Shown one piece after another: positions 37,833 to 45,200 of a stretch of DNA of 52,322 nucleotides (position 1 is its first letter; each line of letters begins with the position of its first letter). Source of the stretch: Candidatus Hydrogenedentes bacterium ADurb.Bin170 (lineage in GTDB: Bacteria > Hydrogenedentota > Hydrogenedentia > Hydrogenedentales > CAITNO01). The stretch is from assembly GCA_002070275.1 (NCBI GenBank), contig MWCY01000021.1, forward strand, positions 1 through 52,322, given 5' to 3'. The notes under the pieces were generated by a model. The model did no database searches. It saw only the letters and a list, made by a program, of their open reading frames with translations, and had not been told where the DNA came from. The position numbers and the translations under genes were made by a program.

Positions 37833-39653
37833 CTAATGACGGGAAGCAAGCTGCCGCTCATAGGATGCCTTGCCGCCATGGGGCACCAGCGGCGGCGATG
37901 GACTTCCGCGCCATTTGGGCCAGAGATAACTCTCCAGCACTTCAGAAAAAAAGTGGCTGCCGTCGGAAACTTCACTCATAGGTGTATCTTCAATTTCCCG
38001 TCGGGTCAAACTTCGGTAAGGGCGCTCCATTCTGTATGCGTCGGCCAGGGCGATCGTTTTTCGGCTGGCGAGAGGTGTTGCGCAATTCTGCAGCAAATCA
38101 GGGGACAGGGTATCCGGTGCAGCACCCCAGCGCACTTCGGGCGGTAGGTTGGGGTTGAAAGATAGATCGTAAAGACGCTTTTCCACCTCCAGAAAAGTCA
38201 GGGTGCAGGGCTGTCCGTGGCTATCTGTAAACTGGATGCTGCGCTCGGCGAAAAGCTGATTTTTCTTCTGCAATGCGGCAAGAGCAAGATCCGAAGGTGT
38301 CCAGACAGCGTGCAGGTTGAGTCCGGTGAGATCAAGCATGTCCGGTGCGTTATCGAACCACTGAATGGCGGCATCCATTTCCTCGAGAAACTCGAGGTAT
38401 CGCCCACGCAGTTCCGCATCTTCCAGAGCTGAAGCATAGCGTCCCCAGCGACCGCCTGTATGATGAATATTTCGTGATGCGGTTCCTCCCGGAAACTCAA
38501 TGGCGCCTTCGGTCTGTACATTTTCCCAGGCGAGGCGCACCTGCTCTTCCCGACGGCTGAGCGCCTGCGCAAAGTCTGTAAGAAACCGTTGGATAATCTC
38601 AACAGGCGACACGGGCTTTTCCGCTTTCATGCGGAAGCGTATAAACTGGTGCATGCTGGTCAGGGGAATATTTTTTTCGGTAATGAATCCTTTGGTGACC
38701 AGTTCTTCCATGCGGTCATACTGCTCCACGCTGAAACCGAATTCCCGCATTTCCTCGTCAGTGCGCCGCCGGACGCGGGTTACTTTGCCGTCCCGATCCG
38801 TTTCAGCGATGGGATAGCGCAGCACGCGGAATCCGCGGAAGCAGCCTGCATAAGGATTGTTTTCCCGGGTGGAGTCTTTGGGGGTAATGCCGGTGACCGC
38901 ATTCATGCCGTTGAAGGTATAGAGATCCCGGGTGGGCGAGGTGGTGGCATCCAGAAAGCGGACGCCGCCGCCTTCTTCAATCTCTGCCAGTACCAGCACA
39001 TGCCCGTCCAGATAAAAGGAGCATCCGGGGATCAGGTATTGGGGCGTGATGGCGACCGGGCAGGTGTCGCTCCATTCGGAATTGCGTGCGAAAGGTTCGA
39101 CGCGGAGGTTGCCTGTACAGGTGCCTGTGACCAGGTCAACAAAAAATTGATGCGCGGAACTGTATTCAAAGGAGCTGGCGGTGCCGGCGGGCAGGGTGGA
39201 TGGCGCAGTGCGGATGTCCGTTCCGTCTGAGGAGCGCACGGTGCTGTACATAAAGGGGAGGCCCCGTCGGCATGCGTAATAACTTCCCAGAGACATGAGC
39301 AGTTTATGACAGTCGACAATATGATGCAGCGCCCGGATGGTGGGCAGATCAATCTGCGGATTGGAGGGCTCACCCAGAAATTCCGGATCCAGAAGCAGAT
39401 TCATTTCCGGATCAGTAAGCACATACTCCAGTTTTGCCAGCCGCTGCTCTTTTGTTCCATGCACTTTTCTGTCGTATATAGTGGAAATCCATTGTGCAAA
39501 ATGGCGGGTTTCCGCCGGTGTCCACTGTCTGTACAGCGGCCAGGCACCTCTGGAAGAATGCAGCGTTGCCGGGTTAGGATCTTCTGCATCGGCCGTTGCC
39601 GGGAGAAGGGCTGGAATAAGAAGAAAGAAAAGGAGTCCGTAAAATCGGCGCAT
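37833..39653 (-). CDS. secreted protein with transglutaminase-like Cys-His-Asp layout, paralogue A
   Basis: A 606-residue protein with a signal peptide (RRFYGLLFFLLIPALLPATADA). It is homologous over its length to the neighbour at 39756. Shared blocks include WTPAET, LLDPEFLGE, DCHKLLM...Y-A-C-R-R-G-L-P, YLDGHVLVLAEI, FLDATTS, and F-N-G-M-N. Cys115, His218 and Asp235 fall in contexts like the Cys, GH-W and D-x-T sites of transglutaminase/papain-like enzymes. That assignment is my inference; I do not recognise the family. The start follows AAAGGA. The in-frame extension to 39755 overlaps the neighbour's end and lacks a ribosome-binding site. Confidence 0.7.
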   Translation of the reverse strand: MRRFYGLLFFLLIPALLPATADAEDPNPATLHSSRGAWPLYRQWTPAETRHFAQWISTIYDRKVHGTKEQRLAKLEYVLTDPEMNLLLDPEFLGEPSNPQIDLPTIRALHHIVDCHKLLMSLGSYYACRRGLPFMYSTVRSSDGTDIRTAPSTLPAGTASSFEYSSAHQFFVDLVTGTCTGNLRVEPFARNSEWSDTCPVAITPQYLIPGCSFYLDGHVLVLAEIEEGGGVRFLDATTSPTRDLYTFNGMNAVTGITPKDSTRENNPYAGCFRGFRVLRYPIAETDRDGKVTRVRRRTDEEMREFGFSVEQYDRMEELVTKGFITEKNIPLTSMHQFIRFRMKAEKPVSPVEIIQRFLTDFAQALSRREEQVRLAWENVQTEGAIEFPGGTASRNIHHTGGRWGRYASALEDAELRGRYLEFLEEMDAAIQWFDNAPDMLDLTGLNLHAVWTPSDLALAALQKKNQLFAERSIQFTDSHGQPCTLTFLEVEKRLYDLSFNPNLPPEVRWGAAPDTLSPDLLQNCATPLASRKTIALADAYRMERPYRSLTRREIEDTPMSEVSDGSHFFSEVLESYLWPKWRGSPSPPLVPHGGKASYERQLASRH

Positions 39654-39755
39654 AGGGCATCCTTTCAAAATAAAGAACAATGGACGGTGCAGGCGCGGCA
39701 AGGAGGGCCGGTATCTTCGCCTTCGGATATCAGTTTCATGAGAGAACCGGCACAC

Positions 39756-41534
39756 TTACAATAAAGGACTGGTGGCATAAGACCATTTGCCTACCTGCGC
39801 ATCCAGTTTATCACGGATCGGGTAGCCTGTTGTAAACATACCGCGCAGATAACTGGTTGTCGTTTCACGCTGGCAGAGGCTTCGGTAAAAAGCCTGGAGT
39901 CGGTATGCCTCTTTCATAGGCATTTTAAATCCGTCAGGCAGCGGTGTAGGCGGTTCCGGGGCGCCGGCAAACTCGTCACTGTCGAAAGGCGCACCCCAGC
40001 GCAGTTCCGGCGGGTGGTTGGGATCAAAAGAAAGGTCGTAGAGCCGCTCTTCTATATCCTTCAAGGTCAGGGTGACTGTTTTTCCTTTCGAATTAGTGTA
40101 GTCTAAAGAAAGTCTGTCGAAGTGCTGGTTTTTTTCGGCAATCATGGCGGCAGCAAGATCCGCCTGGCTTCGGATGCCGTAGGATTCGAGCCCTGTCATG
40201 TCGATGAAATCCGGTTTCATTTCAAACATGCGTATTGCGTATTCCATCCAGTCGGCAAGGTAGAAATATTTGTTGCGTCGATCCACATCGGAGGAAGGGG
40301 AACTCCAGGTTTCCCAGCGACCGGTCGCCTGGAAAATATTGTCCTTGTCGCGGTCTTCCGGGTACACAATAGGTCCGTTGCGCAGGACATCTTTCCAGGC
40401 ATCCTGAATAAAACGTTCCCGCTCCAGATAAGCCTGCAGCAGCTCATCGCAGTACTGGCGGATAAAAGCCGCGGGTGCAATGCGGTCCAGCGTTTTCATC
40501 CGCAGCCGGATCAGATCATGGATGCTTGAAGGGCGCAGCCCGCCTTCCTCAATGAAATGGTTGTCATACATCTCACGGGTGAGATCGTACTGTTCCGTGC
40601 TGAATCCGAATTCCCGCATTTCGGCATCGGTCCGGCGGCGAACCCGGGTGACATTGCCCCGGCCGTCTGTTTCCGCAATGGGATAACGGAGAACCCGCAG
40701 ACCCTGAAAGCAGCCCGCCCACTCGTCGTCCGGGTCAGACCCGCGCGGGGTCATGCCGCCTACAACATTCATGCCGTTGTAGGTAAAGATATCGCGGGAG
40801 GTGGTGGTGCTGCAGTTAAGGAAATAGAGTTCACCGTACTCGGTAACTTTCGCGAGGACAAGGCAATGTCCGTCCAGATAGTTCATACAGCCAGGCAGTA
40901 ATTTATCCCGGTTCAGCGCCACCGGCACCGTGTCGGACTGTTCGGCATTTCTGCCGTTCAGGTTGACTCTGTAATTTCCGGAAATAAAATGACCCACTGC
41001 TGCATTAAAAAACTGGCTGAGCGAAGGGCTGGTAAAACTATTGGTGCCGCCATAGGGTATATTGAAATCGGAAATGCGGACGTCCACTCCGCGCTGTCCG
41101 GAACTGACGGTGGCAGTAATCCAGGGAAGGGCGCGGCGGTATGCGTAATAGGCAGGCAGAAAGGCGGTGAATTTTCCGCAGTCCATAAGATGATGCATGG
41201 AGCGGATTAGCCCGGCGGGCATCTGCGGATTGCCGCCTTCCCCGAGAAAGGAAGGATCCTGCAGCAGATTCATGTCCGGATCGGTAAGAAGATATTCCAG
41301 TTTCGCTGTTCGTTGCTCAACGGTACCTGTTGTCTTTTTGTCGAAAAGGTGTTCCACCCAGCGCGCATAATGCATCGTTTCAGCGGGCGTCCACTGGCGG
41401 CGGATGGGCCAGGCGCCCCCGCCACGGATAGATGGCGGGTTGGGATCGGCAGCGGCAGCAAGCAAAGCGGTGAGCGACACGGCGCCCAGAAGAAGCAGCG
41501 TCAATGGTCGATTAAAATACGGAAAAAATGGCAT
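39756..41534 (-). CDS. secreted protein with transglutaminase-like layout, paralogue B
   Basis: A 592-residue protein with a signal peptide (NRPLTLLLLGAVSLTALLAAAA). It parallels paralogue A throughout, including PAETMHYARWVEHLFDKK, GAWPIRRQW, RVLRYPIAETD and RVRRRTDAEMREFGFS. The candidate active-site residues are Cys119 in MDCGKF, His223 in YLDGHCLVLA and Asn240 in FLNCSTT, where A has Asp. The Asn could be a papain-type third residue or mark loss of activity. It is probably the first gene of the pair, 102 bp upstream of A on the same strand, with a TATAAT promoter before it. Confidence 0.7.
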   Translation of the reverse strand: MPFFPYFNRPLTLLLLGAVSLTALLAAAADPNPPSIRGGGAWPIRRQWTPAETMHYARWVEHLFDKKTTGTVEQRTAKLEYLLTDPDMNLLQDPSFLGEGGNPQMPAGLIRSMHHLMDCGKFTAFLPAYYAYRRALPWITATVSSGQRGVDVRISDFNIPYGGTNSFTSPSLSQFFNAAVGHFISGNYRVNLNGRNAEQSDTVPVALNRDKLLPGCMNYLDGHCLVLAKVTEYGELYFLNCSTTTSRDIFTYNGMNVVGGMTPRGSDPDDEWAGCFQGLRVLRYPIAETDGRGNVTRVRRRTDAEMREFGFSTEQYDLTREMYDNHFIEEGGLRPSSIHDLIRLRMKTLDRIAPAAFIRQYCDELLQAYLERERFIQDAWKDVLRNGPIVYPEDRDKDNIFQATGRWETWSSPSSDVDRRNKYFYLADWMEYAIRMFEMKPDFIDMTGLESYGIRSQADLAAAMIAEKNQHFDRLSLDYTNSKGKTVTLTLKDIEERLYDLSFDPNHPPELRWGAPFDSDEFAGAPEPPTPLPDGFKMPMKEAYRLQAFYRSLCQRETTTSYLRGMFTTGYPIRDKLDAQVGKWSYATSPLL

Positions 41535-41615: not shown

Positions 41616-41644
41616 ATTATAGACAGAACAGCGGACGCATCCAA
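41616..41644 (-). promoter_or_regulatory. promoter of the tandem secreted pair
   Basis: Reverse strand: TTGGAT (41639-41644), 17 bp, perfect TATAAT (41616-41621), 82 bp before the ATG of paralogue B. Confidence 0.6.
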
Positions 41645-41766
41645 AAAGAGTGCCGTGACGACTGTGCCCCGTCTGAACAAAAAAGACCTGCGTAGAGCAG
41701 AAATGGCGTCTGCGAGTTTCTCCGGGCCGCGTGGTGTGTTCTTAAAGGCGGGCGGATCAGGAGGCT

Positions 41767-43293
41767 TTATTTTTTGCGTAAAGCCACATTGCCGAATTGG
41801 TCGATGAGTTCGTGCTTCCGGACTTTTCCGATGGCTGTTTTCGGCAGCTGATCAACAAAGCGAACGTAACGGGGGCATTTAAAAGCGGCAAGATTTTCTT
41901 TGCAGAAGTCAATGACTGCCTTTTCAGTAAGCGTATCTCCGCTTTTTACCTGAACCACGGCAAGCACTTCCTGACCCCAGGTGGGTTCATCAACTCCGAT
42001 GACTGCCACTTCTTCCACCGCCGCCATCCGGGCAATAATCTGCTCGACTTGAGCGGTATAGATATTCAGGCCGCCCCGGATGATCATGTCTTTGACACGG
42101 TCAACGATATAAAGGTAGCCTTCGGCATCGAAATGACCGAGGTCTCCTGTTCTGAGCCATCCATTCTGGAGGACTTCAGCGGTTGCCTCGGGGTTGCGGT
42201 AGTAGCCTTTCATGACAGTAGGACCGGAGATAAGCACTTCGCCGACTTCGCCCACAGGCACGTCATGACCCTTTTTGTCCACGATGCGTATGGAAGTATA
42301 GCGCAATGCGGGGCCGACAGAATTCCAGCGGATGGGGTCTTCGTGGTCTGCAACAGCACTGGCGCAGGTTGCTTCGCTTAAGCCGTAACCCATGATCAGC
42401 GGCTTTTTAAATACGCGCTGGACTGCTTCGTAGATTGCTTCGGGCATAGGAGCGGCACCGGAAACAAAGAAGCGGATCGAACTTACATCGGTGGTCTCCG
42501 CTTTAGGAAGGCGCGTCATCAAGCCGTAAATAGTGGGCACGGCGCTCATGATGGTTATCTTATGCTGTTCAATCAGAGGCAGAATAGTATAAGGTGTGAA
42601 AGTGCCGCCAACGAGAATGATAGTCGCATTGCAGAGGGTAGGGGTCAGGATGGAAACAACCTGCGCATTGACATGAAACAGTGGCAGCACACAGAGGAAA
42701 CGGTCGCGGGAAGTGATGCGGTTCGAGCGCAGCAGTGACAGGGTGTCCCAGGCATAATTGCCGTGGGTGAGGATAACCCCCTTAGGTTTGCCGGTTGTGC
42801 CCGATGTATAGATCAATGCGGCATCGGAAGCCTCCGTTGTCACAATATCCGGGGTCTCGACGGGTTGAAGCAGCTCGGAAAAAGAAGAGGAATGTTCGCA
42901 GGACTCGCCCAGGATAAATACTTTTTCCAGATTCGGAAGGGCTTCAAAAAGGCGGGGCAGGACGGGTCGGAACTGTGCCATAATAATCAGGAAACGAGCT
43001 TCGGAGTTTTGAATAATATAAGCGAACTCCTCAAAACTCAATGCCGGGTTGATGGGAACTAGCAATGCGCCGATACGGCCGCAGCCCATAAAACAGTAAA
43101 GGTACTCCAGGCAGTTGCCCATCATGAGCGCAATCTTGTCGCCCGGCTGAATGCCCTGTGCCTTCAGATTGCCGGCAACCAGACAGGAGCGTTCCAGCAT
43201 CTGCCGGTATGTCACTTCCTCTTTCTCGAAAATGATCATGGGAAGATCCGGCGCCTGACGTACAGATTTTTCCAGTAATTCCGGTATAGTCAT
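41767..43293 (-). CDS. AMP-dependent acyl-CoA synthetase/ligase
   Basis: A 508-residue adenylate-forming enzyme (class I ANL superfamily), activating a carboxylic acid, probably a fatty acid, with ATP and CoA. The AMP-binding signature is IYTSGTTGKPKGV. GYGLSEATC, GWLRTGDLG, RGGLNIYTAQVEQI and the C-terminal GKVRKHEL lysine region are all present. The length matches medium/long-chain acyl-CoA ligases. ATG 43293 has AGGAAAG in front. The frame is open for a further 73 codons across the promoter and is rejected as coding there. Confidence 0.9.
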   Translation of the reverse strand: MTIPELLEKSVRQAPDLPMIIFEKEEVTYRQMLERSCLVAGNLKAQGIQPGDKIALMMGNCLEYLYCFMGCGRIGALLVPINPALSFEEFAYIIQNSEARFLIIMAQFRPVLPRLFEALPNLEKVFILGESCEHSSSFSELLQPVETPDIVTTEASDAALIYTSGTTGKPKGVILTHGNYAWDTLSLLRSNRITSRDRFLCVLPLFHVNAQVVSILTPTLCNATIILVGGTFTPYTILPLIEQHKITIMSAVPTIYGLMTRLPKAETTDVSSIRFFVSGAAPMPEAIYEAVQRVFKKPLIMGYGLSEATCASAVADHEDPIRWNSVGPALRYTSIRIVDKKGHDVPVGEVGEVLISGPTVMKGYYRNPEATAEVLQNGWLRTGDLGHFDAEGYLYIVDRVKDMIIRGGLNIYTAQVEQIIARMAAVEEVAVIGVDEPTWGQEVLAVVQVKSGDTLTEKAVIDFCKENLAAFKCPRYVRFVDQLPKTAIGKVRKHELIDQFGNVALRKK

Positions 43294-43368
43294 TTTGTCT
43301 TTCCTGCTGACGGACACGGAGGTGATCCGACCTGCTTCCATCCGGAGGGGTGGTCGGTAATGGGAGAT

Positions 43369-43397
43369 AGTATACCCGAAGGCTGTATGCCAGCCAA
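43369..43397 (-). promoter_or_regulatory. candidate promoter of the acyl-CoA synthetase
   Basis: Reverse strand: TTGGCT (43392-43397), 17 bp, TATACT (43369-43374), 76 bp before the ATG. Further upstream, GTAA-N4-TTAC (around 43421-43432) is a small inverted repeat that may be an operator. Confidence 0.5.
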
Positions 43398-43486
43398 AAT
43401 CTTTACAAGTTCTAACAAGTAAACGGTTACCATGATGGGCACAGCATAAAATAAGTTGCCATAAAAAAGAAAAAACGCACAAAGAT

Positions 43487-44713
43487 CTAGGAGTCGGATA
43501 TCCTGTCCGCACAAAGCGGATCCGCAGTTGTAAGGGTGCGGAAATCCATAATACGATGAAAAGTCATGAAGTTGGCGTCATGGTTGTTGCGGGCGCCGCC
43601 TTCGTCGTCGTCATACGCCGTGCGGCAGACCGCGATCAGGTTGTTTCCTTCAAACTGCCAGTCCACATACTGAAAACCGTGATGCTCCACTTCGGGATGA
43701 TGCAGAATGATCGCACGGACTTCCCACTGTCGCAAGTCCGGGGAGCGCATGAGCGCCAGGGTATTCCTTATGCGTGCCGGGCGCTCAGTACCGACATACT
43801 GTTCCTGTACGATGGAGGATAGTGTCCAGTAGAATCCGCTTTCCGGATCGTGGCGGATGGTAAATTTTTTGGCACCGCCAGGAAAATCAATGAAACCAGA
43901 GCAGGGATCGAAGGAGACGGCAGAGCCGTCCTCGCTGACAGTAACCAGTGCGGCTTTTTCCGGATACCCCGGCGTATCCACACGAAGGACATTTACAATA
44001 GCACCGGAAGGATCGACAACGGCATTGCCTTCAAGCCACCCTCCGAAAGTGCCGTCAAGCCACAGCGGGTCACGGGGCAGCGGATTGCTGAAAGTCCAGC
44101 TGGAGGCATTGAGGAGATCGGCGTCTACCGGCGCGGACATCATAAGCGCCTGATACCGTTCTCCCCAGCGGATCCCGCCCATGGCGTCCTCAAAGGCGCG
44201 CCACAATCGGCCTTTATATTCGATCACGGGCCCCGGTGCGGTGTGGTACTGTTCTTCGGAAGGAGTGAGCCTTCCGCTATGTGCATCGAGCGGTTCTGTC
44301 CAGTGAGCTCCTTCGTCATCGGAACGTCGGATAACAATTGCGCCGTGATGTTTTTCCACGGCAAGCAGATAAACAGCGCCGCGATGGGTAAACAGTTTTG
44401 GCCAGAAAAGGCACTGCATTTCCGCGAGCCGTGTCCAGCTTTCGCCGCGGTCTTCCGAACGGAATACAACGGCTGTCGCACATACGTGCTCATTGCTTTC
44501 AGGACCGAAATAATCATGCGCGGCAAGATAGTGGCCGGACGGCAGGACGGTAATGCTGGGCGAGCCTATATATTTCCCGGTAGACTGAGGGCTGTGGCTG
44601 ATGACAATTCCGGGGGGAGCTGCGACGTCTGCGCCGCGGGCAGCCGGACAGGCGACGAAGCATGCAAGCGTCAGAAGGGAGAGCGTGCCACGGAGGTAAG
44701 CAGTAACATGCAT
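43487..44713 (-). CDS. secreted sialidase-family protein
   Basis: A 408-residue protein with a signal peptide (GTLSLLTLACFVACPAARGA). Asp-box motifs SEDRGESW and SDDEGAHW are visible, along with propeller-like strands such as GSPSITVLPSGHYLAAHDYFG. Its similarity to the 7128 gene is in the fold only, and the Asp-boxes differ in number. The catalytic arginine triad and nucleophile tyrosine cannot be assigned by eye. It is 10 bp downstream of the TPR gene, with AAAGG overlapping that gene's stop, so the two are probably one transcript. Confidence 0.78.
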   Translation of the reverse strand: MHVTAYLRGTLSLLTLACFVACPAARGADVAAPPGIVISHSPQSTGKYIGSPSITVLPSGHYLAAHDYFGPESNEHVCATAVVFRSEDRGESWTRLAEMQCLFWPKLFTHRGAVYLLAVEKHHGAIVIRRSDDEGAHWTEPLDAHSGRLTPSEEQYHTAPGPVIEYKGRLWRAFEDAMGGIRWGERYQALMMSAPVDADLLNASSWTFSNPLPRDPLWLDGTFGGWLEGNAVVDPSGAIVNVLRVDTPGYPEKAALVTVSEDGSAVSFDPCSGFIDFPGGAKKFTIRHDPESGFYWTLSSIVQEQYVGTERPARIRNTLALMRSPDLRQWEVRAIILHHPEVEHHGFQYVDWQFEGNNLIAVCRTAYDDDEGGARNNHDANFMTFHRIMDFRTLTTADPLCADRISDS

Positions 44714-44723
44714 GGAAAAGCCT

Positions 44724-45200
44724 TTACTTGTGGTTCAGCTGGCTCTGAATTTCATCGCTTGCTAATTTGGTCTTGTCCTGAATGTGCGCAAGCTTCATTT
44801 GTGCCGCACGGGCGGAAGCGGAGCGGGGCTCCACTGCTATCGCCTGCTGCCAGGACTTTACAGCGTCCGTATCTTCATGAAGTTTGTATAAAGCATTGCC
44901 ATAATAAAGAAGTCCCCGGGAATAGTGCGGATCTTCCTGAAGCGCTTTCTGAAAAGAATACAGGGCATCACTGTAGCGCTTTGCATTGTAATGTTTCACA
45001 CCCTGCTGCAGATACTTGCGCGCTTTCTTCCGTTCACCCGTCACAGCGGAGGAGGAGCCTTCCTGCCAGGAAGCGGAGATGCTGTCCCAGAAATCGTGGG
45101 TAAATTCGGCGGTGGAGGATCGAAAGCTGACAAAGCGCCAGGCGGTGAGAGCGAGGTCGCTTATGAGCGCCCAGGCGCCGGAGAAAAATGACTTGCTCAT
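44724..45200 (-). CDS. TPR-repeat protein
   Basis: A 158-residue protein. Residues 1-55 hold a hydrophobic/aromatic stretch (ALISDLALTAWRFVSF) that may be a membrane-associated helix. Residues about 58-150 contain two to three TPR motifs, with A-x-x-Y-F-x-x-A-L-x-x-D-P-like patterns (YSDALYSFQKALQEDPHYSRGLLYYGNAL). Such repeats mediate protein contacts. First gene of a short operon with the sialidase-like gene, driven by a consensus TTGACA promoter. Confidence 0.8.
   Translation of the reverse strand: MSKSFFSGAWALISDLALTAWRFVSFRSSTAEFTHDFWDSISASWQEGSSSAVTGERKKARKYLQQGVKHYNAKRYSDALYSFQKALQEDPHYSRGLLYYGNALYKLHEDTDAVKSWQQAIAVEPRSASARAAQMKLAHIQDKTKLASDEIQSQLNHK

Follow-up and report, generated by a model that had tools for sequence, protein, structure and literature searches.

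We describe two adjacent paralogues, A and B, of a Hydrogenedentota bacterium that belong to a family in which a cysteine and a histidine are invariant, and in which a duplication has produced one copy with Asp and one with Asn at a third position. The profile of the family core resembles that of CHAP domains. Altogether, we lean toward the interpretation that A and B are exported, papain-like cysteine hydrolases or acyltransferases of the CHAP kind, which arose by an old duplication of an Asp-type ancestor, and that they are two active enzymes whose most likely targets are peptide bonds in the cell envelope. The pair adds an unnamed papain-like family, predicted to be exported, from poorly known phyla. 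Moreover, the Asp/Asn pair, which has been retained for a long time, offers a natural experiment on the role of the third residue in a Cys-His triad.

The gene pair and its surroundings

In the window (the whole stretch of DNA analysed, 52,322 nucleotides), A and B are both encoded on the (-) strand, with B upstream and an intergenic gap of 102 bp (Table 1). The start codon of A is an ATG at 39653, which is preceded by AAAGGA, and that of B is an ATG at 41534. The two proteins are 44% identical over 583 aa and, thus, paralogues; the closest relative that holds the pair is JAAYJV010000114 ("Candidatus Hydrogenedens sp."), in which the identity of B is 89%. Read by eye, the N-terminal hydrophobic segments resemble Sec signal peptides and end in a cleavage-like site of small residues (ADA-E in A and AAA-D in B), and no lipobox was seen in either N terminus. 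Both proteins are, therefore, likely to carry a signal peptide and to be exported. A sequence-only reading of this DNA had given the coordinates, the strand and the lengths of about 600 residues correctly and had numbered the triad residues (C115/H218/D235 in A, C119/H223/N240 in B) exactly; its claims that the proteins are paralogues and secreted agree with the identity and with the signal peptide-like starts, respectively.

The gene order on the (-) strand is TPR protein, BNR-like protein, AMP-ligase, B, A, MFS transporter and GreA-like factor. Sialidase-like and TPR genes had been placed beside the pair; both are present, but neither is directly adjacent, because the AMP-ligase gene intervenes. 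These neighbours are shared only within the genus and differ beyond it, which argues that the pair is a unit of its own; the neighbourhood offers no hint to its role. The suggestion that it is driven by its own promoter is made plausible by a possible promoter (TTGGAT-17-TATAAT) and a terminator-like hairpin upstream of B; however, a consensus promoter scan neither picked up this promoter nor placed it above chance. In the region, 12 terminator-like sites were found versus 9.5 expected.

Table 1. Positions of the gene pair, its triad codons and other features in the window
Feature	Position	Strand	Remark
Gene A	37833-39653	(-)	606 aa; predicted exported papain-like enzyme, Cys-His-Asp copy
Gene B	39756-41534	(-)	592 aa; upstream member of the pair; Cys-His-Asn copy, predicted to be exported and papain-like
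A Cys115 codon	39309-39311	(-)	Presumed nucleophile
A His218 codon	39000-39002	(-)	Invariant His
A Asp235 codon	38949-38951	(-)	Third triad position
B Cys119 codon	41178-41180	(-)	Presumed nucleophile
B His223 codon	40866-40868	(-)	Invariant His
B Cys224 codon	40863-40865	(-)	Immediately follows the catalytic His (GHC)
B Asn240 codon	40815-40817	(-)	Third triad position
Possible promoter, TTGGAT-17-TATAAT	41616-41644	(-)	82 nt upstream of B; perfect TATAAT; read from sequence
Terminator-like hairpin	41687-41701	(-)	Between AMP-ligase gene and B
AMP-ligase gene	41767-43512	(-)	Between BNR-like gene and B
BNR/sialidase-like gene	43487-44713	(-)	Weak: BNR_2 E 7e-4, below cut-off
TPR gene	44724-45200	(-)	Neighbour
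Open frame of 746 aa	13237-15477	(+)	No Pfam match at E 0.001

Distribution of the family and conservation of the triad

Searches of Pfam, NCBIfam, PHROG and PDB sequences with A and B gave no relative above threshold, and querying the PDB sequences by A, A3, A4 or a core consensus gave no match. Accordingly, the family is unnamed in Pfam, NCBIfam, PHROGs and the PDB, consistent with the earlier remark that it was not a recognised one. It was not found in viral contigs. Among the genomes of Ca. Hydrogenedentota, 30 of 68 contain the family, nearly always in two copies; these mostly sit next to each other, the B type preceding the A type. Outside of this phylum, a profile search of 386 genomes detected it convincingly in one lineage only, which belongs to a second phylum; in that phylum, single copies (the remote clade) occur in 24 genomes of one family and in one genome of another family, and a profile search of 382 genomes around the second phylum revealed no third group. 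Most of the protein can be aligned between the Hydrogenedentota group and the remote clade (hhalign 100%, E 3e-62). In the phylogenetic tree, the second phylum, in which all copies have Asp, is the outgroup. The Hydrogenedentota Asp copies group as a single clade (support 93), whereas the remaining Hydrogenedentota sequences are the Asn copies, with a poorly supported base. In one genome (G008; L027:1572-3590), the B copy is interrupted between the Cys and the His by a TAG in frame near residue 194, reflecting either a sequencing error or a decayed copy. The commonest neighbour in the second phylum (14/21 loci; e.g., L073:7529-8551) is a divergently transcribed gene for a protein of ~340 aa with a hydrophobic N-terminal segment.

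Conservation was scored in 77 sequences from the two phyla, counting readable positions only. Cys115 is present in 73/73 sequences and is the sole invariant Cys, the runner-up being conserved at 66%, while His218 is present in 76/76 and is the sole fully invariant His; His503 is also near-invariant, yet A carries Leu at that position. Cys115 and His218 belong to 26 invariant columns among 483. The distance from the Cys to the His is 100-105 residues across the family, and the third residue follows the His by 17 in 72/72 sequences from both phyla. Among all readable sequences, the third residue is D in 51, N in 23, E in one and H in one. These findings strongly support a predicted triad of Cys, His and third residue. 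At the position right after the catalytic His, 23 of the 26 non-acidic copies have a Cys, as B does (Cys224), and the acidic copies have Val.

The Asp-to-Asn difference noticed between A and B is kept throughout: in 25/25 genomes with the third residue readable in both copies, one copy is acidic (Asp, once Glu, in the A copy of G038) and one non-acidic (Asn, once His, in the B copy of G046). This count does not represent 25 independent events; A and B are groups of orthologues, so that inheritance of one A and one B by each genome explains most of the regularity, and the independent cases are the Asp-to-Glu, the Asn-to-His and the G017 changes. In G017, no A copy was found and one of two B-lineage copies has Asp, so that this exception, like the Glu and His ones, still follows the pattern. 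Based on these comparisons, the split is real and old.

Two explanations of the split other than a pair of separately active enzymes have to be considered. It is conceivable, although we think it doubtful, that A and B form an obligate two-enzyme unit, in which the CHAP-like paralogues must differ at the third position and act jointly, perhaps as a heterodimer or in two steps on one substrate; G017, in which B-lineage copies occur alone and one has reverted to Asp, bears on this idea. We consider it unlikely that only A is an enzyme, with B as its pseudoenzyme partner in regulation or scaffolding. The strict acidic/non-acidic pairing in all 25 genomes, the upstream position of B when the copies are adjacent and the Cys that follows the catalytic His in 23/26 copies of the B lineage would fit such a partner; however, a pseudoenzyme is expected to lose its nucleophile somewhere, and the non-acidic copies retain the Cys in 24/24 and the His in 26/26 cases. 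Moreover, Asn, Gln, Asp and Glu are the canonical third residues in papain-like enzymes, and Cys-His-Asn is a standard active triad among them (PMC10318531). The retention of Cys and His in both types speaks for two enzymes rather than for an enzyme and a dead partner, and B is probably an enzyme. Thus, the split itself stands, while the "enzyme plus partner" roles proposed for it by the sequence-only reading are doubtful.

Relationship to CHAP domains and other cysteine enzymes

Profiles were built from 29 transglutaminase core domains drawn from Hydrogenedentota itself and from 19 CHAP, 15 C39_2 and six NlpC/P60 domains. Using hhalign, these were compared with the family core in three sets (remote clade, whole family and Hydrogenedentota clade), with reversed and 60 column-shuffled profiles as controls. 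The remote-clade core matched the 19 CHAP domains with a probability of 93% (E 3e-7, score 43.9), while the shuffled-column controls reached a maximum score of 20.1 and 0/60 were as good. For the whole family, the probability was 72%, again with 0/60 shuffles as good; for the Hydrogenedentota clade alone, the match was weak (8%), though 0/60 shuffles were as good. The remote clade matched CHAP domains from other phyla only at 85%, six random halves gave 40-93% and the positive control, CHAP versus NlpC, gave 97%. An earlier CHAP profile of three sequences gave no clear signal, which emerged at 19 sequences. The confidently aligned part is confined to the PG turn and the GHV and Asp strands (PG-H-D segment), and the Cys aligns with that of CHAP only once the confidence threshold is removed.

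Consistently, in HMMER searches the CHAP profile PF05257 was weakly matched by 15/23 remote members (best E 0.0014); the best remote-clade score, 19.5 bits, missed the curated cut-off of 26, and A and B gave no match. hmmscan with the consensus sequence found nothing beyond CHAP. The "GD" motif on strand 1, which marks the CHAP/NlpC cluster (PMC10318531), is absent from the family: Gly210 is present in 76/76 sequences and is followed by C in 37, T in 28, A in eight and S in three, but never by D. Because the scores are below the Pfam cut-off and this motif is absent, we suggest that the family is related to CHAP rather than a member of the CHAP family.

In AlphaFold2 predictions (full A; residues 36-300; six-sequence alignments), the pLDDT in the catalytic region was 25-34 because the alignment was too shallow, and in the model of full A the C-terminal helical part alone was modelled. 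With this model, VIA-align 2 matched residues 344-584 only (best Z 6.2), to bundles of STAT and syntaxin. Such a helical arrangement is common, and we do not regard it as a lead; the VIA-align 2 listing contained no CHAP, NlpC or transglutaminase chains and is uninformative because the model of the core is poor.

The sequence-only reading had assigned the pair to transglutaminase/papain-like enzymes. The invariant Cys and His and the CHAP profile match bear out the papain-like part; the transglutaminase-like part fails in the remote-homology comparison. Specifically, the order Cys-His-Asp, a Leu-Pro 18 residues past the Cys that resembles the GIPAR of same-phylum transglutaminase cores and a D-A-T past the second strand that resembles their DPT could point to transglutaminase-fold cysteine enzymes, acting in protein cross-linking or as a transglutaminase-like protease. 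However, the comparison with the 29 transglutaminase cores did not rise above background with any of the three query sets (score 12.9-13.3, 28-36/60 shuffles as good), and none of 56 family members scanned matched a Pfam transglutaminase, making such a fold improbable. Similarity to NlpC/P60 (PF00877) is marginal, with scores of 12.7-18.5 and 1-26/60 shuffles as good against a profile of six sequences only; for two of the three query sets, 1-2/60 shuffles were as good.

In phytochelatin synthases, the Cys and the His are about 106-113 residues and the His and the Asp about 18 residues apart, and in C39 peptidases the latter distance is about 16. These spacings are similar to those of the family and could suggest another papain-like branch with a wider Cys-His spacing, i.e., a C39-like or phytochelatin-synthase-like peptidase, but this is improbable too, given that the comparison with the 15 C39_2 (PF13529) domains of the phylum, a small and ragged set, was near background (with 5, 11 and 35 of the 60 shuffles scoring as high) and that no Pfam match to C39 or phytochelatin synthase was found.

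Proposed function and comparison with known systems

We propose that the catalytic domain of A and B is papain-like, of the CHAP kind, and lies towards the N terminus, and that the C-terminal region is helical. According to this model, the Cys, as the first residue of a helix, would attack an amide bond, the His, on the strand after the PG[C/T] turn, would activate the Cys, and the Asp of A or the Asn of B, 17 residues past the His, would orient the His. An old duplication within Hydrogenedentota would have given rise to A and B from an Asp-type ancestor, and both may have been retained together as active enzymes with a different pH range or substrate. This fold, catalysis and substrate are predicted from sequence. 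Based on the resemblance to CHAP enzymes, which cut the cell wall, and the likely export, we speculate that the target is most likely peptide bonds of the cell envelope. In Hydrogenedentota, NlpC/P60 domains are present in 4/60 genomes, CHAP domains in 4/60 and transglutaminase cores in 68/68, an unusual set of papain-like enzymes. Because standard NlpC/P60 and CHAP domains are rare in the phylum, the A/B family may do part of their work; the NlpC/P60-bearing genomes lack the family in 4/4 cases, too few to carry meaning.

Among known systems, papain (C1) shares the Cys-His-Asn triad with B, but no sequence similarity to the family was found. The transglutaminase core (PF01841) has the same residue order, a similar His-Asp spacing (16 versus 17) and an LP/IP past the Cys helix; however, its Cys and His are about 40 residues apart, and profile similarity is not detectable. 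NlpC/P60 proteins (PF00877; C40) share DC-x at the helix start, LP about 16-18 residues on, a PG-x turn, a GH strand and, probably, export with the family; in the sequences compared here, they differ in that the third residue is a His, 12 residues past the catalytic His. In the structure of the LysGH15 CHAP domain, Cys54 starts a helix and His117 a strand, and the strand that comes next ends with Glu134; activity is abolished when either Cys54 or His117 is mutated (PMC4022735). The family differs from LysGH15 in its Cys-His spacing (100-105 versus 63) and from CHAP in having Asp or Asn instead of Glu, no Asn at +2 and a protein length of 600 aa, which includes a conserved C-terminal region particular to the family. 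Nevertheless, CHAP (PF05257; MEROPS C51) shares with the family the PG turn and the GHVxxV strand, and the third residue of LysGH15 (H117-E134) lies 17 residues after the His, just as in the family the Cys and the His are followed by a polar residue 17 on (72/72), known here from sequence alone; amide-bond chemistry is likely shared as well.
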